IMG/VR virus record: IMGVR_UViG_3300010885_024721
Coordinates: 1 to 21,636 of that record
DNA: 21,636 nucleotides
From: a virus
Direction: 5' to 3' (one strand)
This document shows positions 2,041 to 19,773 of the stretch, one piece after another. The position numbers were made by a program, and so were the translations under genes. Each line of letters opens with the position of its first letter. The first letter of the stretch is position 1. Under the pieces are notes generated by a model. That model had not been told where the DNA came from. It was given only the letters and a program-made list of their open reading frames with translations, and made no database searches.

Positions 2041-2685
2041 ATGGCAAAATACTTTAGCAAATTTCCTAAAACTTATTATACTTTAGCGAATACTACTTAT
2101 AGTATTGATGTTGTTACAAACATCATATCCCGTTTTTCGCTTGAACAATCATTCAAAGACAATACATCAATTTATGAAAAATATAGTATTCAAGAAAGTG
2201 ATACACCAGAAATCATAGCATCAAAAATTTATGATTCACCTGAACGCCATTGGATTGTTTTGATGATGAATGATATTGTTGATCCTCAATATGATTGGCC
2301 ATTAGAATATAGAACACTAACAGCATTTATTAATGACAAATATACGGCAAATGCAAACACAGCTGCCGGTCAAACCGGTTTAATGTGGGCTCAAGAAAAT
2401 ACACATTCATATTATTCTGTTGAAAAAAGAACAACAATAAGAACAGGTGATTATTCTGAAAAGAAAGTTCGTGTTGACGCTAATACATATGCCAATGTAG
2501 TTACATCATCAACTAATAAAATACTTAATGATGGGAATGAAATTAAAATTGACACATCTAAAGAATCAATATCGTATTACACATATGAAATTGATGAGAA
2601 TGAAACAAAAAGGCAAATTAAAATTTTGAAACCAGAATTTGCTTATGCTCTTGAACAAGAGTTGAAAGTTGTATTTACCACATGA
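2041..2685 (+). CDS. 53: Baseplate wedge subunit gp53
   Basis: This 214-residue protein carries the signature of gp53, the wedge component that holds neighbouring wedges around the hub. The signature is the block at residues 50-90: DTPEIIASKIYDSPERHW, then IVLMMNDIVDPQYDWPL. This LysM-like stretch with His-Trp followed by an aromatic-Asp-Trp-Pro-Leu motif is diagnostic of the family. The N-terminus (KYFSKFPKTYYT) also fits. The C-terminal part (residues 100-214) is Lys/Thr-rich and less conserved. The gene starts three bases after the previous stop and its last codons overlap the next gene by four bases (ATGA). It is therefore probably translated as part of one operon with the 781 and 2682 genes. 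Confidence 0.92.
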   Translation: MAKYFSKFPKTYYTLANTTYSIDVVTNIISRFSLEQSFKDNTSIYEKYSIQESDTPEIIASKIYDSPERHWIVLMMNDIVDPQYDWPLEYRTLTAFINDKYTANANTAAGQTGLMWAQENTHSYYSVEKRTTIRTGDYSEKKVRVDANTYANVVTSSTNKILNDGNEIKIDTSKESISYYTYEIDENETKRQIKILKPEFAYALEQELKVVFTT

Positions 2686-4016
2686 GTCTTAATCTAACAC
2701 AAGCAACTCAATTTAAGATAAAGGATTTAACACTTATCACAAAATTGGGCAGCGTAAATATTACAGGTGTCTATCAAGAAATAAACATATATGATAGTAT
2801 GTTTATGCCTTGTGTTCGTGGTGATATTTTAATCCAAGATGCAATTGGTTTATGTAATAAACTTGTATTGGATGGTAGTGAATACATTTCAATGGAAATC
2901 ACAAAAGGTGAAGAATCTGAAAGTGATGCAACAACATTTAAAAAAACATTTAGAATTTACAAATTAAGTGGAAGAGAAAACATAAATCAAAATTCTGAAA
3001 TTTATGTTTTATATTTTGCTTCAGATGAAATGGTATATTCAGAACAACAAAAAATAAATCAATCATTTACTGGTGCATATAGTGATATTGTTAATGTCGT
3101 TTTAAGAAATTATCTTTCGGTTCCTAACAATAGAATAAACAAAATAGGAACAACAAAAGGTGTGCATACTGTGGTTATTCCAGGTTTATCACCATTTGAC
3201 ACAATGGAATGGTTGTGTAAGAAAGCAATTGATTTCGAATCTTTGCCTAACTTTTTGTTTTTTGAAAACAAGTATGGCTATAATTTTGTTTCATTATCAG
3301 AATTAATTCAAAAACCACCAATAATGAATATTAATTTTGAACCAAAAAACCTTCCTACGTCTGGCAGTAAGGAGTTTTATGGTGCTCGTGAAGCTAAAAT
3401 AGTTAGTTCAAACGATTTGATTGAAAATATAAAAAATGGTGTTTATGCAGGTAAATTTATTGGCATAGACCCACTAACAAGAAAAGTTAGTATTAACAAA
3501 ATAGATTTTCAACAGACATATGGCAAAACACAATCACATTTAAACAAGTATCCAAATTTTACAGGTGCTGTTAATAAAGATGGCCTTGATTCAGCACAGA
3601 TGTTTGATTCTAAAGTTTCATTGTATGCGTTTCAATCTTTTCGTGGTGCATCACCTTGGATTAAAAAAAATGATCCGAAAACAGGAATAATTATTAATGA
3701 CACTCATGCATATGTGTTTCAAAGAGCTCCTATATTCACAAACTTGTTACAAACAACAATACATTTGAATTTACCTGGTAATTTTGGTATCACATCTGGT
3801 TCTGTAATTAATTTAACTATGCCAGTAAAGTCAATAAAACCAGACGCTGGTGAAGCTATCGATGAAACCTTGAGTGGTAAATATATAGTTACAGCAGCAA
3901 GACAAATGATTAAAGGTGATATGCACGAAACAATTATTGAAGTAGCCACAGATTCTACAAATAGACCTTTCTTTAAACGATTAACAGATGAGTTGCTAAC
4001 AGCAACATTAATGTGA
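2682..4016 (+). CDS. Baseplate central hub protein, gp27-like
   Basis: This 444-residue protein sits between gp53 and the gp5 OB-fold gene. Its length is comparable to T4 gp27 (391 residues), which forms the trimeric hub that carries gp5. The first 75 residues form a beta-rich block (KLGSVNITGVYQEINIYDS, GDILIQDAIG) like the tube-type domains of hub proteins. A second part, around residues 165-210, reads GLSPFDTMEWLCKKAIDFE then NFLFFENKYGYNFVS. This is the pattern seen in gp27, Mu gp44 and gpD-type hub proteins: a helix that ends in a double-aromatic strand and a Gly turn. The C-terminal quarter (TIHLNLPGNFGITSGSVINL, GKYIVTAAR) again looks like a hub OB or tube domain. It overlaps the upstream gene by four bases and the downstream ATG by one. 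The identity comes from motif pattern plus context, not from a close sequence match. Confidence 0.75.
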   Translation: MSLNLTQATQFKIKDLTLITKLGSVNITGVYQEINIYDSMFMPCVRGDILIQDAIGLCNKLVLDGSEYISMEITKGEESESDATTFKKTFRIYKLSGRENINQNSEIYVLYFASDEMVYSEQQKINQSFTGAYSDIVNVVLRNYLSVPNNRINKIGTTKGVHTVVIPGLSPFDTMEWLCKKAIDFESLPNFLFFENKYGYNFVSLSELIQKPPIMNINFEPKNLPTSGSKEFYGAREAKIVSSNDLIENIKNGVYAGKFIGIDPLTRKVSINKIDFQQTYGKTQSHLNKYPNFTGAVNKDGLDSAQMFDSKVSLYAFQSFRGASPWIKKNDPKTGIIINDTHAYVFQRAPIFTNLLQTTIHLNLPGNFGITSGSVINLTMPVKSIKPDAGEAIDETLSGKYIVTAARQMIKGDMHETIIEVATDSTNRPFFKRLTDELLTATLM

Positions 4017-4312
4017 TGAATACAAATTTTGCAGGTAAAAATGGATTTATATGGTGGGTTGGTGTTGTGGAAAACCGTGTTGATCCAATGGCTGTTGGCC
4101 GTTGTCAAGTTCGTATTTTTGGATGGCACAATGAAAATTCAATTATATTACCAACAGAGAAATTACCTTGGGCTCAAGCCTTAATACCACTTAACAATTC
4201 AAAGAATTTCTCTGCACCAAGAGTTGGTGATTGGGTTCTTGGATTTTTTATGGATGGTGAGCAAGCTCAAATTCCCGTTATGATGGGTGTTTTACCAGGA
4301 CTAAAACCATGA
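4016..4312 (+). CDS. 5: Baseplate hub spike protein gp5, OB-fold domain only
   Basis: This 98-residue protein corresponds to the N-terminal OB-fold of T4 gp5, which sits on gp27 and joins it to the spike. The matches are close: FIWWVGVVENRVDPMAVGRC recalls T4's FVGVVEDRMDPLKLGR, LPTEKLPW is nearly identical to IPTEKLPW, and RVGDWVLGFFMDG resembles the final OB strand. The whole protein is this one domain, whereas T4 gp5 is 575 residues with lysozyme and beta-helix domains attached. I chose the ATG at 4016, which overlaps the upstream TGA by one base (TGATG). A GTG at 4013 in the same frame is a weaker alternative. The TGA stop at 4310-4312 is followed in the same frame by a TAA at 4322-4324, directly before the next gene's ATG. 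Confidence 0.88.
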   Translation: MNTNFAGKNGFIWWVGVVENRVDPMAVGRCQVRIFGWHNENSIILPTEKLPWAQALIPLNNSKNFSAPRVGDWVLGFFMDGEQAQIPVMMGVLPGLKP

Positions 4313-4324
4313 GGAATAATTTAA

Positions 4325-5506
4325 ATGGCTGAACTCATACCAATTGTTGCAGGCGCAGGTAACAGCGAGCTTGCCAGCCGTCTGGTCGTAGGAGAGGCAG
4401 ACCCTCCGGCGATTGTTCCGGTTGTAGAACCGATTGTGGTTGCTGTGGCTCCAGGTGCAACCAGTCCATTTGGTGGTACAGCCTTCAACAATGCAACTGC
4501 ACAAACTCCTACACCTGTGGATCCAGGTGCTAACACACCGTTTGGTGGTACAGTTTTCAACAATTCAATGAACGCTGCTGTAACTTCGATAAGGTCTGGC
4601 GTTGTAGTTCAAGATGCTGTTTTTGATGTAAGAAAGGCTGGCATAATTGTTATTAGTAATGGAAACATTAAAGAAAATGCACCGCCCGTATGTGTTCGCA
4701 CAGGTGATGCACCACAATCTGGAGAACCATCAAACACTCCAGGTACTTCTTATGGTAAGATTAACAATACCTGTATTGATGAAACAAATAAAAAACGGTC
4801 ACACGTTTGCGATTTTATTTCTGAGATGCAAAAAAATATTGCTTTGAAGGCCTACACTAAAGCTATTGGTGCAGCTATAAGAGAATCTATTAAAAAAATA
4901 ATGAAATTTTTAGGTTTAAGTGATAGAACAGGTAAATTTTCATATGTTATAAGCAGATTAAGAGCTTTTGCGGCTGAACTAAGAAGAATCAATAGAGAAA
5001 TTATACAACCAATTATTGATTTTGAAAGATATGTTTTAGCTTACATCACAAAACTTCGTGCTTTCATACAATGGCTTTTAAGTTTGCCAGCTGCTCTATT
5101 AGCACTACTTGCTGATTGTTTAGCGAGAGTATTAAAGTTAATTAGAAGTGTTTTTAGTGATATAATATCAGAAGCAACAAGTGGTGGTGATAAAACTAGT
5201 GAATTTTCAGAATTGATTGCGGCCGCCAAAGATGCGGCTAAAGCAACTGGAGAAACAATAAAAAAGGTTGTGGAGGCTACAACATTAGCAGTTGAAATTC
5301 CTATTGCTGCAACAGCTGGATTAATAGTTCCTGTTAGTCAATCTGAATTGAATGCTGCCAATACCACAATACAACAATTTAGTGCCTCGAGCCCTTCTTT
5401 ATCGGATATAGAAACTGCTGACCAAAATAAATTATCACAGTTTGGATATCCCGATAGAAACTATTTGAATGACCAACTTATGACATTAACGAAACCGGCA
5501 ATATAA
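4325..5506 (+). CDS. Helical, partly hydrophobic protein in the gp5 lysozyme position; function unknown
   Basis: This 393-residue protein lies between the OB-fold and beta-helix parts of the spike, where T4 gp5 has its lysozyme. No lysozyme motif is visible. Residues 28-43 are Pro/Val-rich (PPAIVPVVEPIVVAVAP), followed by two copies of a PGAxxPFGGTxFNN unit 24 residues apart (about 43-56 and 67-80). Residues 90-165 include four strands and three cysteines (123, 150, 162). Residues 170-285 are strongly helical and basic, with a hydrophobic stretch at 246-263 (AFIQWLLSLPAALLALLA). A second apolar segment lies at 317-337. The tail is polar. A GAGG ribosome site (4311-4314) precedes the ATG. The protein could be a hub plug, a tape-measure partner or a membrane-active tip component. 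None of these is established. It is probably a virion component because of its location. Confidence 0.85.
   Translation: MAELIPIVAGAGNSELASRLVVGEADPPAIVPVVEPIVVAVAPGATSPFGGTAFNNATAQTPTPVDPGANTPFGGTVFNNSMNAAVTSIRSGVVVQDAVFDVRKAGIIVISNGNIKENAPPVCVRTGDAPQSGEPSNTPGTSYGKINNTCIDETNKKRSHVCDFISEMQKNIALKAYTKAIGAAIRESIKKIMKFLGLSDRTGKFSYVISRLRAFAAELRRINREIIQPIIDFERYVLAYITKLRAFIQWLLSLPAALLALLADCLARVLKLIRSVFSDIISEATSGGDKTSEFSELIAAAKDAAKATGETIKKVVEATTLAVEIPIAATAGLIVPVSQSELNAANTTIQQFSASSPSLSDIETADQNKLSQFGYPDRNYLNDQLMTLTKPAI
4451..4564 (+). repeat. Two-copy tandem coding repeat, 72-base period
   Basis: CCAGGTGC...TTTGGTGGTACAG...TTCAACAAT occurs at 4451-4492 and again at 4523-4564. It encodes PGATSPFGGTAFNN and PGANTPFGGTVFNN. 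The copies differ at several third positions, so the repeat is not recent. It lies in a stretch that is G+C-richer than its surroundings. Confidence 0.85.
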
Positions 5507-5507
5507 T

Positions 5508-6398
5508 ATGGCAACAACACCAGAATTAGGAAACGTACCCAGCCTCGCAATTGATGCGGGTTGGACAGAACCAGAATCAGCTGCAAACACATCTTATCAG
5601 CCGCTTTATCCTTATAATGATGCAAAACAAACTGAGAGTGGACATCTATTTGAAATGGATGATACACCTACCCGTGAACGTATTCGTTTACAACACGGTA
5701 AAAGTTTAACCTTTTTTGAAATGCATCCTAATGGTGACCAAGTCCATAAAGTATTCGGTGATGATTATGAAATTACAATTAAAAATAAATGCGTTTTAAT
5801 TCAAGGACGTTGTAGTGTAACCGTTATCGGTGATTGCAATATGGAAGTTCGTGGTGATTATAATCTAGATGTAAAAGGTGATTATAATTTACAAGTTGCT
5901 GGTAAAATGAAAACCCGTGTCAAAGGTGATATAAGGATTTCTGGTGATGAATATGTTGCAATTACCGCAGATGAAAATATTGGTGGTACCATGTATCTCG
6001 GTGCTGCTGACAATATCACAATTGGTTCAGATATGAATCTTAAAGGTTCAATGGATGTGGATGGCACAGTTACTTGTGATACACTTATTGCTGATGGTGA
6101 TTTACAGTATGATGCGGTTGGAAATATTATTGGAGGTGGCGGTGTTTTTGCTGGACCATTTGGTTTTGTTTCAGTAAAAGGTGGTTTATCATTGGGTATT
6201 CCAATAGCAGTACCTGGCTCTGTTTTTGCTGTGGGTTCTGGAACATTTGGTATTAAAGTTTTTGCGCCTTATGTTTCATCATTGTATAGTTCAACAATTA
6301 TTGGTGGTGCGATATGGCAATCTGATATACTTAACTATGTTAAACGATTGATACATAGACCAGCTGGTACTGGTGAAATTAAAGCATCTGTGGCTTAA
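5508..6398 (+). CDS. Spike beta-helix protein, equivalent to gp5 C-terminal domain (gp5C)
   Basis: This 296-residue protein supplies the membrane-puncturing needle. Residues 44-92 (SGHLFEMDDTPTRERIRLQHG, FFEMHPNGDQVHKVFGDDYEI) are the conserved stretch that leads into the prism in gp5 and VgrG proteins. Next comes a run with valine and glycine at a strict period of eight: Gly100, 108, 116, 124, 132 and 140, with Val106, 114, 122, 130 and 138. This is the T4 gp5C octapeptide VxGxxxxx and predicts a trimeric three-stranded beta-helix. Residues 141-200 continue as a looser helix. Residues 203-260 are Gly-rich and hydrophobic (IIGGGGVFAGPFGF), and the end is basic and helical. T4 makes gp5C by cleaving gp5; here it is a separate gene, one base after the preceding stop. 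No PAAR-type tip gene (T4 gp5.4) follows. Confidence 0.88.
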   Translation: MATTPELGNVPSLAIDAGWTEPESAANTSYQPLYPYNDAKQTESGHLFEMDDTPTRERIRLQHGKSLTFFEMHPNGDQVHKVFGDDYEITIKNKCVLIQGRCSVTVIGDCNMEVRGDYNLDVKGDYNLQVAGKMKTRVKGDIRISGDEYVAITADENIGGTMYLGAADNITIGSDMNLKGSMDVDGTVTCDTLIADGDLQYDAVGNIIGGGGVFAGPFGFVSVKGGLSLGIPIAVPGSVFAVGSGTFGIKVFAPYVSSLYSSTIIGGAIWQSDILNYVKRLIHRPAGTGEIKASVA

Positions 6399-6420: not shown

Positions 6421-7245
6421 ATGGCAAGCGTATATGGAAGATTAGGTTTTAATTTTGATGCTAATAATACAGGCATACTATCTTTGTCGGAGGATGCAAT
6501 TGGGCATTTAAATACAGCCCCAAGTTTTTTACCGAATGAATGGCAAGTAACTGACCTTGCAAATTCTGACACGGATGGGTATTATAAAAATCCAACCGCA
6601 AACGTCTATACAACAATGTCTGCAAACGCAAACTTAATTTATATTACTGCAACTTCAAGTAATATTACTTTTCCTTTTGCTGTTTATGGTGAAGGTGCAA
6701 AATTAGCAAATACTGCCAATAGTTACATGATAACTTTGGATTCGTTTAAATCCCATACGGATAATCTTACTGTAAATTTAATTGAAGATGGTGGCACATC
6801 TGCAGCAGATTTTCCATATAGACAAAGTGCGTTAGGATATGGAAAATTTTTAATTTATTTAACATATCAAACTGATGGAATCTCTAATGCTTCTCCAGCT
6901 TTAGGTAGTTTTACCAGCTTGTTTGTCAATGAACAACTAGAATCAAACAATACAATAATCTATAATGATTTCATTACTCTGAATAATTCAATATCAATGG
7001 TTTCTGGTAATGCAGTTTCGAGTTTGTCTGGTGCTGCCATAAACGTAATTATTTCACACATTCAAACTGCAAATACTTTAATTGATACTAGAAGAACACA
7101 CGATGTTCAATTTTTTCAAAATAGTGGTGAGGTTCTTAAAGATTTTGGAGTTGTAGCTGAATTTTCAAATATGGGTGCCCTAGACACCAATCTTGCTAAT
7201 AATTATATTGGTTCCGACAAATTACTTACCAGACTTAACTCATAA
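6421..7245 (+). CDS. Putative virion structural protein between the spike and gp25
   Basis: This 274-residue protein has no fold I can name. It starts MASVYGRLGFNFDANNTG and has a strong ribosome site (AAAAGGAAA, about 6407-6415). Residues 40-130 look like mixed strands (NLIYITATSSNITFPFAVYG, YMITLDSF). The last 70 residues are helical with RRTHDVQFFQNSGEVLKDFG and then EFSNMGALDTNLANNYIGSDKLL. T4-like phages of aquatic bacteria tend to carry a similar unassigned protein next to gp25. It has no signal peptide or membrane segment. Its place in the operon makes a baseplate or neck component likely. The gene's stop overlaps a CATAAATA motif seven bases before the gp25 ATG. Confidence 0.8.
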   Translation: MASVYGRLGFNFDANNTGILSLSEDAIGHLNTAPSFLPNEWQVTDLANSDTDGYYKNPTANVYTTMSANANLIYITATSSNITFPFAVYGEGAKLANTANSYMITLDSFKSHTDNLTVNLIEDGGTSAADFPYRQSALGYGKFLIYLTYQTDGISNASPALGSFTSLFVNEQLESNNTIIYNDFITLNNSISMVSGNAVSSLSGAAINVIISHIQTANTLIDTRRTHDVQFFQNSGEVLKDFGVVAEFSNMGALDTNLANNYIGSDKLLTRLNS

Positions 7246-7252: not shown

Positions 7253-7657
7253 ATGGCAACCGTAACCACAGATATTGTTAGAGATTTCAAAGACTTGGAC
7301 TTGAATTTTACCATTCATCCAATTCGAAAAGACATTAATAGAGCCATCGGACCGATGGCTGTTGTCAATTCCATTAAAAATCTCATACTTACAAATTACT
7401 ATGAAAGACCATTTCAACCAGATGTTGGTTCAAATGTTCGTAGATTATTGTTCGAAAATCTTGATAATATTACGGCAACTACTTTAAAAAATGAGATAGA
7501 GCGGACTATTGCAAACTATGAACCTAGAGCTACCGTTAAAGCTATAAATGTGAAAGCAGATTTTGACAATAATGGATTCAAAGTTTACTTAGAATTTTTC
7601 ATTGTAAACCAAACACAACCCATCATAATTAATTTTCTCCTTGAACGGATCCGATAA
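7253..7657 (+). CDS. 25: Baseplate wedge subunit gp25
   Basis: This 134-residue protein has the length of T4 gp25 (132) and the marks of the GPW/gp25 family. These include the N-terminal strand-turn (DLDLNFTIHPIRKDINRA), the conserved VVNSIKNLILTNYYERPFQP block followed by GSNVRRLLFE at about residues 38-69, and the EPR motif in YEPRATV (residues 89-95). gp25 forms the core of each wedge with gp6 and gp53 and contacts the first sheath ring, linking baseplate change to sheath contraction. There is no Shine-Dalgarno sequence just before the ATG; the previous stop lies seven bases upstream, so coupled translation is likely. The next gene starts immediately after the TAA. Confidence 0.95.
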   Translation: MATVTTDIVRDFKDLDLNFTIHPIRKDINRAIGPMAVVNSIKNLILTNYYERPFQPDVGSNVRRLLFENLDNITATTLKNEIERTIANYEPRATVKAINVKADFDNNGFKVYLEFFIVNQTQPIIINFLLERIR

Positions 7658-8074
7658 ATGGCCAACGCACGTTTACAAATTACAGACCTTGATTTTGATA
7701 CAATCAAGAATAATTTAAAATCTTACCTACAACAACAATCTGAATTTACAGATTATGATTTTGAAGGTTCTAGTTTGAATATCCTTTTGGATATTCTGGC
7801 TTACAACACCCATTACAATGCTTATTATTTAAACATGGTTGCCAATGAGGCATTCATGGATACCGCACTATTGCGTGATTCTGTTGTTTCACACGCTAAA
7901 ACATTGAATTATGTTCCGTTCTCATATTCTGCATCCAAATCAATTATAAATTTAACTGTAACGTCTTTAAATAACACACCAGGTACATTAACATTACCTA
8001 AAGGTTTTACTTTCAGTTCAAATTTAATCGATAACATATCATACAATTTTGTTACAATTAAGATGCAACGGTAA
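7658..8074 (+). CDS. 6: Baseplate wedge subunit gp6, N-terminal fragment (frameshifted)
   Basis: The 138 residues visible in this frame are the start of gp6, the V-shaped wedge protein that forms the baseplate inner ring. The conserved opening is clear: LDFDTIKNNLKSYLQQQ, then YDFEGSSLNILLDILAYNTHYNAYY and MDTALLRDSVVSHAKTLNYVP. The frame stops at 8072-8074 after a stretch (YNFVTIKMQR) whose last residues do not fit the family. The rest of gp6 continues in the next frame at once, starting at 8062 with DATVTK. Joining the two gives about 684 residues, close to T4 gp6 (660). The break therefore looks like one lost base, not a real gene end. If the sequence is correct, this product would lack most of the protein. 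Confidence 0.85.
   Translation: MANARLQITDLDFDTIKNNLKSYLQQQSEFTDYDFEGSSLNILLDILAYNTHYNAYYLNMVANEAFMDTALLRDSVVSHAKTLNYVPFSYSASKSIINLTVTSLNNTPGTLTLPKGFTFSSNLIDNISYNFVTIKMQR
8057..8074 (+). other. Frameshift point inside gp6
   Basis: The upstream frame reads att-aag-atg-caa-cgg-taa here. The downstream frame is closed by a TAA at 8059-8061 and is open from 8062. The shift must therefore fall between about 8060 and 8074. Adding one A to the AA at 8060-8061 restores ...VTIKDATVTK... and a continuous reading frame. There is no canonical X-XXY-YYZ slippery heptamer. Confidence 0.85.
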
Positions 8075-8127
8075 CAAAATCCAACTCATCATACTTTTTT
8101 GAAAATTTAGAAATCTATGAAGGTAGG

Positions 8128-9711
8128 TTGGTAGATTACGTTTATACATTCAATAGAAATTCTAATCCAAAATCCATCTTTACGTTACCAGATTCGAACA
8201 TCGACACAAATACATTGTTTGTAAGTGTAACTGATGTGAGTGGTAATTCAGCAACACAAGTTTATAATCAAGTTACGGAAATCTTAGATGTTGATTCAAC
8301 ATCACAAGTTTATTTTTTACAAGAGTCTAAAAAAGGTAATTATGAGATTTACTTTGGTGATGGTGTAATTGGTAAAGCTCTCACCGATGGCTCTACTGTT
8401 AGTGTCAATTATCTTGTAACTTCAGGTATACCTGCAAATTCTGTTGATGGATTTATTCCAGATTCTTCTATTGGTGGATTTACTAATACGTCAATTGAAG
8501 TTGTAGCTGTAGCTAGCGGCGGTGCAATTCGTGAATCAGTAGACTCAATTAAATATTCTGCGGCTGCACAGTATGCTAATCAAAACAGGTTGGTAACAAT
8601 TAAAGATTATGAAACATATATTCAGTCAAAATATCCAAGTATAGATTCTTTATCTGTTTGGGGTGGAGAAGATGAAACACCGCCAGTATATGGTAAAGTA
8701 TTTGTTGCATTAAAACCAAAAACAAATTATTTTATTTCTGAATTAGAAAAAGCTCGTATTGTTTCTGAAATCATTGACCCAAAATCTATTGTAACGGTTC
8801 AATCTGAAATTCGTGATCCAGAATTTTTATATTTGTCCGTTGAATCTTCTGTTCAATATGATCCAAGAAAAACAGTTTTATCTGAAGATGCAATTAAAAC
8901 AAATATTAGAAATGCAATTATATCCTATCGTGATACATTTTTAAATAAATTTGGTGCAAGTTTTGTTTTATCAAAACTTCAAGATAACATTGACGGAACA
9001 GATATTAATGCTATTATTGGTTCTGAATCGACTGTTCGTGTCCAACGTAGATTTGAACCATCGTTGAATCAATCAGCGAGTTACAATATTAATTTCAATG
9101 TGCCTTTACATCGTGGTACAATTACAAATAAATTAACATCAACTGAGTTTAATGTGCTTGATAACACAGGCACATTAAGAACGGCACAATTTGATGAATC
9201 ACCACAATCATTCACAGGTGTTTCTGAAATCCAAGTTATTGATCCTGGTTCCGGTTACATAACTGCACCAACAGTTACAATTAATGGTGACGGTAATGGT
9301 GCAACCGCAGAAGCAACCATTGTAAATGGTCGTATTCAAAAAATTACAATTACAAATCGTGGTTCTGAATACACTAGAGCAACTGTAACTATTTCTGATG
9401 GTAGTGGTTATGGCGCTTCAGCTCTTGCTGTTGTAGATGCTAAAATTGGTACATTAAGGACCATCTATTATGATTCATTGGCACAAAGACAAATTATCAA
9501 TGCTAGTGCCGGTACAATTTTTTATGATACTGGTATTGTTATTATTAACGATATAAGATTTTTAGCTGTTAGTTCAACTGACAATTTAATTCGTATGACA
9601 ATTGAAGCTGAAAAAGGTATCATTCAATCAAAAAGAAATACTATTATTACAATAGATGAAACAGACCCAACATCAATTGTTACCACACTATCAAAAAATA
9701 CTAAACAATAA
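8128..9711 (+). CDS. 6: Baseplate wedge subunit gp6, C-terminal fragment
   Basis: This frame carries the remainder of gp6. It is open from 8062. The first start-like codon is a TTG at 8128, giving 527 residues, but a genuine start there is doubtful. Features include YEIYFGDGVIGKALTDGSTV, typical of the baseplate J/gp6 family, and then KYSAAAQYANQNRLVTIKDYE and VWGGEDETPPVYGKVFVALKP, also family hallmarks. Near the end a GxGY beta-module pair is inserted (about 9222-9450: DPGSGYITAPTVTI, GRIQKITI). After this the protein ends with a strand-rich segment and a Lys-rich tail. The stop overlaps the next ATG (TAATG). With the upstream fragment this is one gp6 gene interrupted by a single-base frameshift. 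Confidence 0.88.
   Translation: MVDYVYTFNRNSNPKSIFTLPDSNIDTNTLFVSVTDVSGNSATQVYNQVTEILDVDSTSQVYFLQESKKGNYEIYFGDGVIGKALTDGSTVSVNYLVTSGIPANSVDGFIPDSSIGGFTNTSIEVVAVASGGAIRESVDSIKYSAAAQYANQNRLVTIKDYETYIQSKYPSIDSLSVWGGEDETPPVYGKVFVALKPKTNYFISELEKARIVSEIIDPKSIVTVQSEIRDPEFLYLSVESSVQYDPRKTVLSEDAIKTNIRNAIISYRDTFLNKFGASFVLSKLQDNIDGTDINAIIGSESTVRVQRRFEPSLNQSASYNINFNVPLHRGTITNKLTSTEFNVLDNTGTLRTAQFDESPQSFTGVSEIQVIDPGSGYITAPTVTINGDGNGATAEATIVNGRIQKITITNRGSEYTRATVTISDGSGYGASALAVVDAKIGTLRTIYYDSLAQRQIINASAGTIFYDTGIVIINDIRFLAVSSTDNLIRMTIEAEKGIIQSKRNTIITIDETDPTSIVTTLSKNTKQ
9222..9450 (+). repeat. GxGY beta-module pair in gp6
   Basis: The encoded pattern is a valine-rich strand, DPGSGY, APTVTI, GNGATAEATIVNGRI, then a second copy, NRGSEYTRATVTI. 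The same module recurs in the genes at 9711, 12265 and 13831. It resembles repeats known from many phage tail proteins and probably forms a small beta-domain exposed on the baseplate. Confidence 0.7.
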
Positions 9712-13830: not shown

Positions 13831-16800
13831 ATGTCGTTAAATACTAATTTTAATGTCAATCCATACTATGATGATTTTGATGAAGATAAGAAATTTCTTC
13901 GGATATTATTTAAGCCTGGTTTTGCTGTTCAAGCCCGTGAATTAACACAATCTCAAACTATTTTACAGAAACAAATTGAACGCTTTGGTCAACACATTTT
14001 TAAAAATGGTTCTGTTGTTTCTGGTGGTCAACTGTTCATACATGATACCACATATTTAAATGTAAGCACAGATTATGCTGGTACTGCGGTTAATATCAAT
14101 AACTTTAATGGTAAAACAATTACCAATGTAGCAGGAACAAAAACAGGTCAAGTTGTAGTTGTTTATGATGTTAATTCTGGTACTGGTGATCCAAAAACAA
14201 TTTATGTGAAACAAATTTCAGGAACACCATTTGTTGCTGGAGATACAATTACCACAGTTGAAGATTCACCTGTTTTTGCTAATGTCGCAACAGGTGGTGT
14301 TGGAACTGGTCAAACATTTTCTGTAACTGATGGTGTTTATTTTTATGATGGATTTTTTCTTAAAAATAGTGAACAAACAATTGCCATTAGTAAATACAAT
14401 ACGTCATCTAATGTAAGAGTTGGTTTTGAAATTACAGAATCTATCATTGAATATACACAAGATACATCTTTGCTGGATCCAGCGCAAGATGCTTCTAATT
14501 TCCAAGCACCAGGTGCTGACCGATTTAAAGTTGATTTAATTCTTTCTAGTCGTTCATTAACTTCTACTGATGACACTCAATTTATTGAGTTAGCTAGAGT
14601 TCAAAGTGGAACTTTATCTTACGCATTAATTTACCCACAGTATGCTGTTCTTGAAGATACTCTTGCTCGTAGAACATATGATGAGTCTGGTAACTATACT
14701 GTTCGACCATTCAAACTTGCATTAGAAACAAGTGCAGCTAATACTGCCAAAGCTAATGTTATTTTATCTCCAGGTAAAGCATATGTTTATGGTTATGAAT
14801 ATGAAACAATTTCACCAACAACAATCACATTTGATAAACCACGCACAACAGATTCAGTTTTAGATAAACGATTAACTGCTGATTATGGTTACTATGTGTA
14901 TTCAAATACACATTTTGGTTCTTTACCAATTAACAGTTTACAAACAGTAGATTTGCATTGTGTATCAAATAGCACAATTAACGTAGCAACTGCTGGCACA
15001 ATTACCAACACTAAAATTGGTACAGCTCGTGTCAAATCTATTGCATTTGAATCCGCAGCAAATACACAAAATTCTGCAACCTACACTTATCGCACATATT
15101 TGTTTGATATAAATGTTGGTTCTGTTGCTGGTGGTAATGTTGTTGCTCTAGGAACAAACACAAGTTATGTGCAAATTGCAAATACTATAACTGGTTCAAA
15201 TTTATATTCTACTGCTAACAATGCCTATACTGGTGCTAAATTTAGAGTTATTGCAGGCACAGGTTCAGGTCAAACACCAAAAACCATTGTAAATTATAAT
15301 GGTGCAAATCACACAATACAACTTGCTGAACCATTTAACACAACATTAGATGCAACTTCAAACTGGTCTATTGACTTTGAAGTTAATGATGTTAAGTCGC
15401 TATCAGTAGTTAGTGGTACAACTCGTCTTGCCGCAGCTGATATTGATACCTCATCTAAAGATTTAGCTTCAACATTTAACGACACATTTATTTCAGATAG
15501 TAACCTTGAGCCATTATTGTTTAATCTTGGCCAAAACTATATTGCACAAAATACAATTGCTGATTTTTCATACTCTTATAAACGTCTGTATCAATCACAA
15601 TCGTTTTCATCTTCAGATTCTCCAGCATTAACTGTTGGTACAGGTGAAACAATTTCTGCTGCTACAAGTTCTTCCGCTAAAGCTGAGAACTATCAGATTG
15701 TTGTAACAACTCCAGGTACATCACCATATACTATTGGTCAAATTATTCCTGCCAACTTATACACAGTAGATACAGGTACTCGTAAAATTACTGTTACTTC
15801 AGGTAACAACATGGTTGCAAATATTACTGCAACAATTGATGCAAGTAATCCTGGTTCAAAAGGCAAAACATACGTTGGTGCCAATGCTACTGTGCAAACT
15901 TCTGGTGGTACAAGCATTTTTGCAAATAACGGAGTAATGCTCTATACAGCAAATGGCCAAGTTCATATAATGGCCAATACAATCATTAAAACTCCAGATT
16001 CTATTCAATCACTATTTGTTCCTGATGTGATTGAATTGGTTTCTGTTTTAGATTTTAATAATACTGCAATTACTGTTGCTAACTCAGCAATCGCAACCGA
16101 TGTTACATCACGATACACATTAGATAGTGGTCAAAGAGATTCATTCTATGACCACTCATCTATTAGATTGAAGGCTGGTTCAGTTGCACCTACCGGCCCA
16201 TTGGTTGTTAAATTTAATCGTTTCAGTTCATCTGGTGCAGGATTCTTTACCGTAGATTCATATGTTGGATACAATTACGGAAGTATTCCTGCTTACACTT
16301 CTGCGGCAACAGGGCAAGTTTACCAATTAAGAGATTGCCTTGATTATAGACCTGTTAGGTCAATACCCACAACACCAACGACAGCAAACACCGTCAGCTT
16401 TGATGTTGACTCAACCACGACTGGTCCTAAGATTCCAGAGAATGGTTCCGATGTGATTTTAGATTATCAGTATTTTCTACCAAGAATAGATAAGGTATTA
16501 TTAAATAAAAATCGTACCTTTGAAGTTGTTCAAGGTAACCCTTCTCTGACGCCAGTTCCACCTCTTGATAAAGATGGTGCAATGACGATGTATATTCTTC
16601 GTGAGCCTGCTTATGTTGCTAATACATCAGATATTGAAGTTCAATATATTGATAATAGACGTTATACAATGCGTGATATTGCTAACATCGATAAACGTGT
16701 TGGTAATTTAGAATATTACACTTCACTTTCTCTATTAGAACAAAATGCATTGAACAAACAAGATTTAACTATTTTAGACTCTACAAATTTACCAAGATTT

Positions 16801-19773
16801 AAAAATGGTATTATTGTGGACTCATTTGATGGTACATCTGTTGCTGACGTAACCAATACTGACTATTCTGTTTCTATTGATCCTAGAAAAAAGGAAGTTA
16901 GACCAACATTTAATATTACATCACATGGATTAACATTCGATTCAGCAAACTCATCTAATTATTTGCAAGCTGGTCCAATTGTGATGCCAAATGCATCTCC
17001 TAATACTGTTTTTGTTGACCAAAACAAATCTTCAAAAGTTTACAATATTAACCCATTTAATATTGTAAATTACATTGGTAAAATTCAGTTGAATCCACCA
17101 TCAGATGTTTGGATTGATACCGACAAACAGCCAGACGTTCTTGTAAACCTTGAAGGTGATAAAGATGCGTGGGCTCTGATTACTCAAAATGCTTTTAGTT
17201 ACGAATGGGGTAATTGGGAAACTTATTGGACAGGTACATCAACTTCTTCGTCTGTTAATCAACATACTGGTGGTCGCCAAGCAATCATTGAAACTACGAC
17301 CACAACTACTAGCAAAAAAGATACTCGTGCGGGTGTGCTATCAACAGTAGTTCCGTCAACAATCGTTGAATCATTAGGTGACCGTGTTATTGATGTATCA
17401 ATTATTCCGTATATGCGTGACCGTGGCATATTGTTTACTTGTTCCGATTTCAAACCAAATACCGAACTTTATGGATTCTTCGACAATATTAGTGTAAACA
17501 AATATATTGCTCGTGCGAATAAATTTACTTTAAGTTCCAACAACTTAGGTTATATTACACAATCTGGTAATCCAGAAGCTGTGAATGTTACCAATACAGC
17601 AACAAGCACCGTAAATGCAACAGCGTTTATTGTTCGCACATCAAACAGAGAAGCATTTGTAGTTAATTTAAATCCTTCATCGTTGTTAAATTCTGCAACT
17701 ATGAATTTGGTTGGCCAATCAAGTGGCACATCAATTAGAATTGATGGATATGACCACTATTCAGGATTTGTAACTTCTGCCACATCAAACACCATTGTAT
17801 TGGCTGTAGATGTTACAAGCGCAAACAATACTGGTAATTACGCTGGTGCAACAGTTTATATTGTATCTGGAACTGGTGCTGGCCAATCAGCTACAGTTTC
17901 TTCTTATACCGCAGGGACAAGAACATTAACAATTGTTGGAACATGGACAACTACACCAACATCTAATTCTTTATACTCAATTGGTAACTTAACAACAACA
18001 GCTGCAGGTGATGTTGCTGGTGTGTTCAACATTCCAAATGGAGTGTTCCGTATTGGTGAAAAGAATTTCAGATTGATTGATACTTCAAGTGGTGATATTG
18101 GTTCATCTTCTACAAACGGAGATGCTGCATTTTTTGCACAAGGCATTTTACAAAGAACAGAAAATACAATTATTTCTGCAACTGTTCCAACAATTCAACG
18201 TGTTGATGTTAAAGATAATCGTGTTGTTACAACATCATCTGTATCACAACGTCAAATTGGTTGGTATGATCCATTAGCACAAACATTCTTAGTATCACCA
18301 ACAAACTACCCACAAGGTATTTTCTTGTCTAAGGCTCGTTTCTGCTTTAAATCAAAGGATGCAACTGTACCTGTTACATTGCAAGTTCGTTCTGTTGTGA
18401 ATGGATATCCATCAACATCTTTGGTTTATCCTTACTCAACTGTTACATTGACACCTGATAAAGTTAAAACAACAACTTCACCTGATTTGGATGATGCAAC
18501 CAAATACACAGAATTTGTATTTGATTCTCCATTGTTCTTACAACCTGGTGAACATTGTTTTGTATTGTTGTCTAACTCTAACAAATATGAAACTTATGCG
18601 GCTGAAATTGGTAAATTAGATACAGTATCAGCAAGACAGATTTCAGAACAACCATATCAAGGTTCATTGTTCTTATCACAAAATGGTTCGACATGGACCG
18701 CCGAACAAAATGCAGACTTGATGTTTAGATTGTTTAGATATACATTTAGCACTGGTACAACTGAAGCACAATTTAATGTGAATTATCCTGCTGCTAATAC
18801 AGCATATGATTTAATGCATTTAATGGCTACAGGAATATCTGTTGAAAATACTTCAATCACATATCAATTTAATTCCGAAAAAGCCACTACTGGTGGAAAA
18901 ACTGGATTGTTGCCATTTACTCCGTTTACTGATTACCCAATGACTGATGGTTATGGACGCCGTGTGTTAACAACAACTGCTAATACAACATTAACAGTTA
19001 AAGCTACAATGGCTACTAGTAATCCAGATGTTGCACCATTCATTGATACTTCTCGTATGGGTATGATTGCAGTTGAAAACATTATCAATGATTTACCACT
19101 AAGCAATTCTGGAATTGTATTGTCAAGTGGTGGAACAGGTTACTCAACTAACGCTAATGCCGTTGTAACAATTACTGGTGGTGGCGGTTCAGGTGCCACG
19201 GCAGCTGCTGTTGTAACTAACAATGTCGTTACATCTGTATATCTAACTGCTGCTGGTTCTGGTTACGAAACATCACCAACAATTACATTGGTTGATGCTA
19301 ATACAACACCAGGTACCGGTGTAACAATCACCTATAACGGTGAAGATAAGAAATCTGGTGGTAACTCTATTGTTCGTTATATTACCCGCAAGGTTAATTT
19401 AGCAGATGGATTTGATTCTGGTGATTTGCGTGTTTATGTGACCGCATATAAACCATCTAATTCGAACATTCGTGTCTATTACAAAATGTTGTCTATTTCT
19501 GATCCTGATGCATTTGAAGATAAAAACTATCAGTTAATGACACAATTAAATAACACTAATTTTGTGTCAAATAATTATAACGATTATCGTGAAATTTCAT
19601 ATGCTCCAGGTGTAAATGGTACTGCAAACAATTCAGTAAGCTATACTTCTGGTTCAACTGCATATAGTAACTTTAGAACATTTGCCATTAAGATTGTATT
19701 GACTGGTCAATCAACTGTTGATGTGCCAAAAGTTCGTGATTTCCGTGCAATCGCATTGCCTGCTGGTTCATAA
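13831..19773 (+). CDS. Giant baseplate/virion structural protein (DUF4815 type)
   Basis: At 1980 residues this is the largest gene in the window. It has a clear ribosome site (AAGGAAA, 13817-13823). Its first 80 residues are a strong family mark: NVNPYYDDFDEDKKFLRILF, PGFAVQARELTQSQTILQKQ and ERFGQHIFKNGSVVSGGQLF, the DUF4815 signature of large structural proteins in T4-like phages. Other recognisable blocks are NAFSYEWGNWETYWTG (near residue 1125), a Thr-rich run, then ESLGDRVIDVSIIPYMRDRGI (about 1180), and YDPLAQTFLVSPTNYPQGIF with VPVTLQVRSVVNGYPS (about 1478-1530). Two copies of a GTGxGQ module lie near residues 465-517 and 1335-1387, and a GxGY pair at 19105-19350. It follows gp8 where T4 has genes 9 and 10, so it probably forms the outer baseplate and fibre-attachment layer. 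Its size suggests it replaces several T4 proteins; this is inference. Confidence 0.9.
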   Translation: MSLNTNFNVNPYYDDFDEDKKFLRILFKPGFAVQARELTQSQTILQKQIERFGQHIFKNGSVVSGGQLFIHDTTYLNVSTDYAGTAVNINNFNGKTITNVAGTKTGQVVVVYDVNSGTGDPKTIYVKQISGTPFVAGDTITTVEDSPVFANVATGGVGTGQTFSVTDGVYFYDGFFLKNSEQTIAISKYNTSSNVRVGFEITESIIEYTQDTSLLDPAQDASNFQAPGADRFKVDLILSSRSLTSTDDTQFIELARVQSGTLSYALIYPQYAVLEDTLARRTYDESGNYTVRPFKLALETSAANTAKANVILSPGKAYVYGYEYETISPTTITFDKPRTTDSVLDKRLTADYGYYVYSNTHFGSLPINSLQTVDLHCVSNSTINVATAGTITNTKIGTARVKSIAFESAANTQNSATYTYRTYLFDINVGSVAGGNVVALGTNTSYVQIANTITGSNLYSTANNAYTGAKFRVIAGTGSGQTPKTIVNYNGANHTIQLAEPFNTTLDATSNWSIDFEVNDVKSLSVVSGTTRLAAADIDTSSKDLASTFNDTFISDSNLEPLLFNLGQNYIAQNTIADFSYSYKRLYQSQSFSSSDSPALTVGTGETISAATSSSAKAENYQIVVTTPGTSPYTIGQIIPANLYTVDTGTRKITVTSGNNMVANITATIDASNPGSKGKTYVGANATVQTSGGTSIFANNGVMLYTANGQVHIMANTIIKTPDSIQSLFVPDVIELVSVLDFNNTAITVANSAIATDVTSRYTLDSGQRDSFYDHSSIRLKAGSVAPTGPLVVKFNRFSSSGAGFFTVDSYVGYNYGSIPAYTSAATGQVYQLRDCLDYRPVRSIPTTPTTANTVSFDVDSTTTGPKIPENGSDVILDYQYFLPRIDKVLLNKNRTFEVVQGNPSLTPVPPLDKDGAMTMYILREPAYVANTSDIEVQYIDNRRYTMRDIANIDKRVGNLEYYTSLSLLEQNALNKQDLTILDSTNLPRFKNGIIVDSFDGTSVADVTNTDYSVSIDPRKKEVRPTFNITSHGLTFDSANSSNYLQAGPIVMPNASPNTVFVDQNKSSKVYNINPFNIVNYIGKIQLNPPSDVWIDTDKQPDVLVNLEGDKDAWALITQNAFSYEWGNWETYWTGTSTSSSVNQHTGGRQAIIETTTTTTSKKDTRAGVLSTVVPSTIVESLGDRVIDVSIIPYMRDRGILFTCSDFKPNTELYGFFDNISVNKYIARANKFTLSSNNLGYITQSGNPEAVNVTNTATSTVNATAFIVRTSNREAFVVNLNPSSLLNSATMNLVGQSSGTSIRIDGYDHYSGFVTSATSNTIVLAVDVTSANNTGNYAGATVYIVSGTGAGQSATVSSYTAGTRTLTIVGTWTTTPTSNSLYSIGNLTTTAAGDVAGVFNIPNGVFRIGEKNFRLIDTSSGDIGSSSTNGDAAFFAQGILQRTENTIISATVPTIQRVDVKDNRVVTTSSVSQRQIGWYDPLAQTFLVSPTNYPQGIFLSKARFCFKSKDATVPVTLQVRSVVNGYPSTSLVYPYSTVTLTPDKVKTTTSPDLDDATKYTEFVFDSPLFLQPGEHCFVLLSNSNKYETYAAEIGKLDTVSARQISEQPYQGSLFLSQNGSTWTAEQNADLMFRLFRYTFSTGTTEAQFNVNYPAANTAYDLMHLMATGISVENTSITYQFNSEKATTGGKTGLLPFTPFTDYPMTDGYGRRVLTTTANTTLTVKATMATSNPDVAPFIDTSRMGMIAVENIINDLPLSNSGIVLSSGGTGYSTNANAVVTITGGGGSGATAAAVVTNNVVTSVYLTAAGSGYETSPTITLVDANTTPGTGVTITYNGEDKKSGGNSIVRYITRKVNLADGFDSGDLRVYVTAYKPSNSNIRVYYKMLSISDPDAFEDKNYQLMTQLNNTNFVSNNYNDYREISYAPGVNGTANNSVSYTSGSTAYSNFRTFAIKIVLTGQSTVDVPKVRDFRAIALPAGS
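15223..15380 (+). repeat. GTGxGQ beta-module, copy 1, in the giant protein
   Basis: This encodes YTGAKFRVIAGTGSGQ, an NYNGANHTIQL strand and DATSNWSI. It aligns in order with the block at 17833-17991. The shared plan is GA-strand, GTGxGQ, Tyr turn, strand, then a Ser/Thr-rich segment ending in an aromatic-Ser-Ile. Confidence 0.6.
17833..17991 (+). repeat. GTGxGQ beta-module, copy 2, in the giant protein
   Basis: This encodes YAGATVYIVSGTGAGQ, SYTAGTRTLTIVG and TSNSLYSIG. It is a diverged partner of the block at 15223-15380, about 2.6 kb upstream in the same gene. Confidence 0.6.
19105..19350 (+). repeat. GxGY beta-module pair in the giant protein
   Basis: This encodes LSSGGTGYSTNAN, VVTITGGGGSGATAAAVV, then TAAGSGYETSPTITLVD. 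It is the most regular copy of the module found in gp6, the gp7-position protein and gp8. It sits just before the conserved C-terminal domain. Confidence 0.75.

Follow-up and report, generated by a model that had tools for sequence, protein, structure and literature searches.

A T4-type tail hub encoded by three genes, with a helical protein in the lysozyme position and a predicted wall enzyme on a tape-measure-like protein

T4 gp5 is the textbook case of a puncturing protein with a wall enzyme of its own, and it matures by cleavage. The DNA analysed here (the window, meaning the whole stretch) is a 21.6-kb piece of a T4-like virus from an IMG/VR record, and it raises the question of what becomes of such a device where the OB-fold part and the beta-helix lie in different genes, what occupies the position between them, and where the wall enzyme resides. 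The tail module of the window runs gp48, gp53, gp27-like, OB, M, beta-helix, x274, gp25 and gp6, with wedge-type proteins beyond. Its relevant features, with those that lie to the left, are as follows (window positions unless a locus is named).

2682-4016, + strand: gp27-like hub protein, 444 aa (phrog_350, 'tail protein', 7e-68)
4016-4312, + strand: OB-fold part of gp5, 98 aa, in a gene of its own (gp5 PHROG profiles; T4 gp5 similarity)
4325-5506, + strand: protein M, 393 aa, in frame with OB (alignment of relatives; AlphaFold2 model)
5508-6398, + strand: gp5C-like beta-helix spike, 296 aa (phrog_430, 3e-36; T4 alignment)
6421-7245, + strand: x274, 274 aa, next to the split hub (conserved in M-bearing loci extending past the helix gene)
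7253-7657, + strand: gp25 wedge protein, which marks the tail module (GPW_gp25, 3e-11)
1-216, - strand: first 72 aa of a 192-aa gene; the tail tube, gp26-like and TM genes follow to its left
L157:8641-10950, - strand: TM of contig G016, a tape-measure-like protein beyond the 192-aa gene, the tail tube gene and the gp26-like gene

The start of OB was taken as the ATG at 4016, which overlaps the gp27 stop (TGATG), while the mechanical list of open reading frames has a GTG at 4013. The x274 protein gave no match in Pfam or PHROGs and is probably structural.

OB, M and the helix protein are three separate open reading frames on the + strand. The match of OB to gp5 PHROG profiles (7e-33 to 3e-25) is confined to profile positions 8-113, at the N-terminus; the profiles span about 850-930 positions, and their beta-helix part is matched by the helix protein. 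A profile of the OB family aligns with residues 6-103 of T4 gp5 (1e-17), and a model of an OB+M fusion finds the T4 gp5 structures (1k28, 1pdl and 9mkb) at about 1e-5. A T4-type N-terminal OB domain is thus indicated by sequence and by the fold match to 1k28; the gp27-like gene is adjacent, and binding to gp27 is predicted. The helix protein matches phrog_430 at positions 326-471 and aligns with residues 367-549 of T4 gp5, which identifies it as a T4-type C-terminal triple-stranded beta-helix; its match to Gp5_trimer_C falls below the curated Pfam cut-off. These matches confirm the proposal of the initial annotation that the gp5 chain is divided at the level of the gene. The position of the division can also be specified. 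The maturation cut of T4 gp5 falls between residues 351 and 352, and the YPY motif of the helix protein (residue 34) corresponds to residue 387 of T4 gp5, so that the initiating methionine of the helix protein corresponds to T4 residue ~354. The gene border hence lies a few residues from the site of proteolytic division. There is no single precursor to be cut after residue 351, as there is in T4, and with separate genes of this kind the maturation cut is unnecessary.

To place this arrangement among relatives, M was collected from 40 IMG/VR loci and OB from 80 of 220 loci, and the genes were classified with our own profiles. The order gp27-OB-M-helix is kept in about 100 related metagenomic loci, some of the related loci being overlapping cuts of one contig. 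The gp27-like gene lies directly upstream of OB in related loci that reach that far, and the longer order gp27-OB-M-helix-x274-gp25 is kept as far as the contigs reach, except in loci where OB and helix form one chain. The OB stop and the M restart recur in about 95 related loci, which rules out a sequencing error behind the split. At these junctions there are AGGA-type Shine-Dalgarno-like stretches, or ATGA or TAATG overlaps.

In 10 loci, OB and M form one open frame. These fused forms are nested among split lineages on the gp27 tree, which calls for at least two changes. They also place M directly behind OB, in the slot that lysozyme occupies in T4, and on this evidence the claim that the lysozyme position is held by an unrelated, helical protein is upheld. 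The presence of M was confined to loci that encode OB and helix separately; none of the loci of a sister clade that joins the two in a single chain contains it. One locus mixes features of both clades: L283 (4323-6359) encodes an OB+helix chain of 678 aa with a long extension at its C-terminus, together with a PAAR gene and x274, and M was not detected in it. Separately, loci L021, L023, L026, L035, L073, L088-L101 and L106 have about 200-234 bases between OB and M. This spacer holds an extra start codon and a small frame, e.g. ATGAGTCAAAGTTTAATTGATTTGCAC, which perhaps encodes a small additional protein of the hub (about 70 aa).

An alignment of 44 M relatives (A1) revealed a variable N-terminus (residues 1-100) and a core with invariant H160, C162, L254, P255 and C265. 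Helices are predicted at residues 174-195, 205-252 and 256-286, the latter two joined at a conserved LP turn in the AlphaFold2 model, which has a mean pLDDT of 57.7, with about 75 for the long helices. The OB+M fusion model repeats these helices and adds the OB fold. M is under purifying selection, with a dN/dS of about 0.35-0.47 against three relatives. The long basic helices ascribed to M in the initial annotation are borne out for the helical core, residues 160-300 (net charge +7), and not for the protein as a whole (+1). The helices are strongly amphipathic (moment 0.69-0.87), with hydrophobic 19-residue stretches of up to KD 1.9-2.15.

A T4-type central lysozyme domain was not recovered in this protein. 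Searches of Pfam, PHROGs and NCBIfam returned chance-level or compositional matches only, and there was no significant match in 50,697 phage records and no significant similarity to T4 lysozyme or lambda R. No hydrolase was found by a PDB sequence search, and Foldseek gave nothing significant against PDB structures and viral models. A hydrolase fold in 4325-5506, named beforehand as the observation that would count against an unrelated protein in this position, was accordingly absent from the family, PDB sequence and fold searches; given the modest confidence of the M model, this is to be read as a negative result. A resemblance of the M N-terminus to a degenerate PAAR motif (GIIVxNG...VRTGD) was also considered and was dismissed (hhalign 0.1%).

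A candidate for the wall enzyme lies in this tail module too, on the opposite strand. Contig G016 shares 7372 bp with the window at 99.986% identity and continues beyond its left end. The TM protein of G016, of 769 aa, begins about 2.1 kb left of window base 1, and the TM gene lies between the gp26-like and ssb genes. Residues ~540-700 resemble domains of isolates that are annotated as tape measure protein, lysozyme-like or lambda lysozyme, with matches to a 'tape measure protein' of Burkholderia phage Magia (39%, 2e-17) and to a cyanophage 'lambda lysozyme'. The domain aligns with lambda R (hhalign 94.7%, 6e-8; hmmsearch 2.6e-7, against 0.23 for the best of 500 shuffles), and the catalytic Glu of the lambda R WSEG motif aligns with TM E548. 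Homology and catalytic residue together make the C-terminal domain of TM a lambda R-type lysozyme with predicted activity. A PDB sequence search with this domain gave chance matches only.

This habit extends to the orthologues. Among 19 full-length TM proteins, tandem pairs included, 14 carry clear evidence of a hydrolase: Phage_lysozyme2 in four, Phage_lysozyme (T4-type) in three, a lambda-R-like domain in two, and M23, SLT, gp5-type lysozyme (phrog_27932), Amidase_2 and a GH19-like domain in one each. A further two have sub-threshold Hydrolase_2 matches, and the remaining three, two of them from tandem TM pairs, have no clear hydrolase. Match values reach 4e-23 for M23, 1e-18 for Phage_lysozyme, 2e-35 for Phage_lysozyme2 and 6e-22 for Amidase_2. 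In the TM of L165, the match is to the lysozyme region of the gp5 profile phrog_27932 (3e-29). The GH19-like domain of the G032 TM shares 36% identity (4e-17) with the one that gp5 of phage BUCT-ZZ01 has between OB and helix, so that one enzyme type is seen in either protein, depending on the phage. The TM proteins measure 563-793 aa, lie near gp26-like and tail tube genes, and share a short conserved C-terminal motif. TM would be the tape measure by its position, length and hydrolase habit, rather than by a match to T4 gp29. The initial annotation had offered a tail that works without a hub lysozyme or one that carries the enzyme elsewhere. The lambda-R-like domain in the TM of the near-identical contig, and the hydrolases of most orthologues, favour the latter. 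Tandem TM paralogues were seen in L160 (12864-16745), with an amidase domain in the second only, and in the G032 record (L328), where one of the pair has the GH19-like domain.

We consider it probable that the phage builds a T4-type hub in which gp5 is divided into three parts, M is a coupler in the middle slot, the wall enzyme has moved to TM, and entry follows the order given here. An OB trimer would plug the gp27-like ring, a beta-helix trimer would form the spike, and the helical M would fill the middle position that carries lysozyme in T4. Contraction of the sheath would push OB-M-helix across the outer membrane; the spike would detach in the periplasm, TM would then exit the tube, and its C-terminal hydrolase, of the lambda-R type in this phage, would cleave peptidoglycan. 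The wall enzyme would have shifted to the C-terminal region of the tape-measure-like protein. The sequence of contraction, spike loss, TM exit and cleavage is modelled rather than observed. Cryo-EM of A-1(L) shows the C-termini of the tape measure interlocked with the N-termini of the spike (PMC10966104). By analogy, the conserved TM end may lie at the hub, and docking on the spike as in A-1(L) (PMC10966104) would be compatible with it.

Since M occurs where OB and helix are separate and is absent where they form one chain, the simplest reading of M is as a coupler of the two. M may be a non-covalent coupler, hung from OB and holding the beta-helix, in place of a covalent linker. M could instead be a chaperone of assembly or a plug that departs before maturation, so that OB contacts the helix directly in the virion. 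In favour of this, M is a separate, coupled gene with a variable N-terminus; however, M and OB are one chain in 10 loci, which makes a transient factor unlikely unless M is cut off, and we regard this explanation as improbable. Still less credible, and in our view highly improbable, is a diverged or novel wall hydrolase by which the hub would keep its enzyme. M does occupy the slot that holds T4 lysozyme, and GH19 or CHAP in other gp5 proteins, but there is no Glu or Asp among its invariant residues, the family, PDB sequence and fold searches gave no match, and TM already has a hydrolase.

The least unlikely of the alternatives, although we still doubt it, is that lysozyme was traded for a membrane-active module, the helices of which would enter the inner membrane after loss of the spike and aid the passage of DNA. 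The strong amphipathicity, the hydrophobic stretches and the basic core would suit such a role, as would a position under OB that is exposed once the spike is lost. However, no segment is a clear transmembrane helix, matches to pore-formers were not above chance (Pfam, PHROGs, NCBIfam and fold searches), and trimeric helical bundles give the same pattern. A broader formulation embraces both the coupler and a membrane-passage device: M would be an undescribed, non-enzymatic part of the spike that replaces the OB-helix linker and part of the hub, with wall digestion placed on an exchangeable tape-measure cassette. To this we give slightly less than an even chance.

Comparison with described systems helps to delimit what is particular to the locus. 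T4 gp5, which serves as both baseplate hub and tail lysozyme alongside gp27 and gp5.4, has homologous OB and beta-helix parts in the same order, and the gp27-like gene is adjacent to OB in this phage. In T4, however, these are parts of one precursor with a lysozyme, whereas here there are three genes, M stands in place of the enzyme, and no PAAR was found in M-bearing records. In Methylophilales phage Melnitz, the OB and helix parts are likewise in two adjacent genes, but a VanY/M15-type peptidase lies behind OB, the helix protein has an M15-like end, and M is absent. In the locus from this isolate (L118, 6001-9044), OB is fused to the VanY/M15-like peptidase, the beta-helix is in the next gene, and a PAAR-like gene follows. 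Synechococcus phage BUCT-ZZ01 also places a foreign domain between OB and helix, in this case GH19 rather than M. For CBA120 gp5, the domain between OB and helix has been reported as exchangeable, with CHAP/NLPC_P60 at that position in one chain (PMC3184105); the exchanged middle is shared with our locus, but it is another hydrolase in a single polypeptide.

Cyanophage gp5 proteins (S-SSM5, P-TIM40) combine OB, a helical insert with no recognised hydrolase and a beta-helix, though in a single chain of about 850 aa. Comparison of M with this insert gave a hhalign value of 10.8%, which is above unrelated tail-protein controls and is not significant. The lysozyme of these phages is in a separate gene by gp26/gp51 (T4-GC 607): in S-SSM5, gp5 has no lysozyme and a relative of T4 lysozyme (1e-13 to T4 gp5) is encoded near gp26/gp51. 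Two long proteins (T4-GC 606 and 607) are also found at the site of the tandem TM pairs. Homology of TM to these proteins is not supported: there is no significant similarity, and the resemblance is positional only. A hydrolase on a tape-measure or tape-measure-like protein is known from TM4 (PMC1796659) and Magia; what differs here is its combination with a hub of the T4 type from which the lysozyme has been lost.

A gp5 devoid of lysozyme is also present in Vibrio Ackermannviridae and in the IMG/VR sister clade of L108, which has gp27, OB, helix and TM in common with our locus. In both, OB and helix form one chain of about 285 aa and M is absent. The Vibrio phages and some of the L108 sister loci have a PAAR tip gene. 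In Vibrio phage 1.244 (L115, 7986-8975), the PAAR tip is fused to an M15-type peptidase-like domain, which is a further route by which the spike can bear a wall enzyme. All loci in which PAAR tip genes were found lack M, several sister-clade loci among them. None was found in M-bearing loci, or in 18 records of the group, one of which is 135.9 kb. Since the records are fragments, the statement on PAAR is provisional.

The exchange of modules at the middle of gp5 (CBA120, PMC3184105) and hydrolases on tape measures (PMC1796659) are known already. No description of the three-gene hub was found in the open-access literature on gp5 variants, and what is new is its occurrence, with M, across a large uncultured clade of T4-like phages and its link to the relocation of the wall enzyme. 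The clade implies that a tail need not couple piercing to wall digestion: the spike is built of separate chains, with the division close to the T4 cut site, and the enzyme is carried by a different tail protein, at which at least seven hydrolase types have been exchanged. This leads to the questions as to what joins OB and spike as separate chains, and whether an unchanging spike goes with a tape-measure-like protein whose hydrolase is adapted to the wall of the host. An annotation rule also follows for many uncultured T4-like phages, in which the label 'tail lysozyme' is attached to proteins without lysozyme.

Some minor observations concern the window and its group. No photosystem genes were found in eight records, and a cyanobacterial host is therefore unsupported. 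The gp6 gene of the window is split into 7658-8074 and 8128-9711 by a one-base deletion relative to relatives (window 8055-8130), against an intact gp6 of 684 aa in G001; this is either an assembly error or a real mutation. Downstream of a gp8-like gene, positions 13831-19773 encode a 1980-aa protein, the length of which is conserved in G001.
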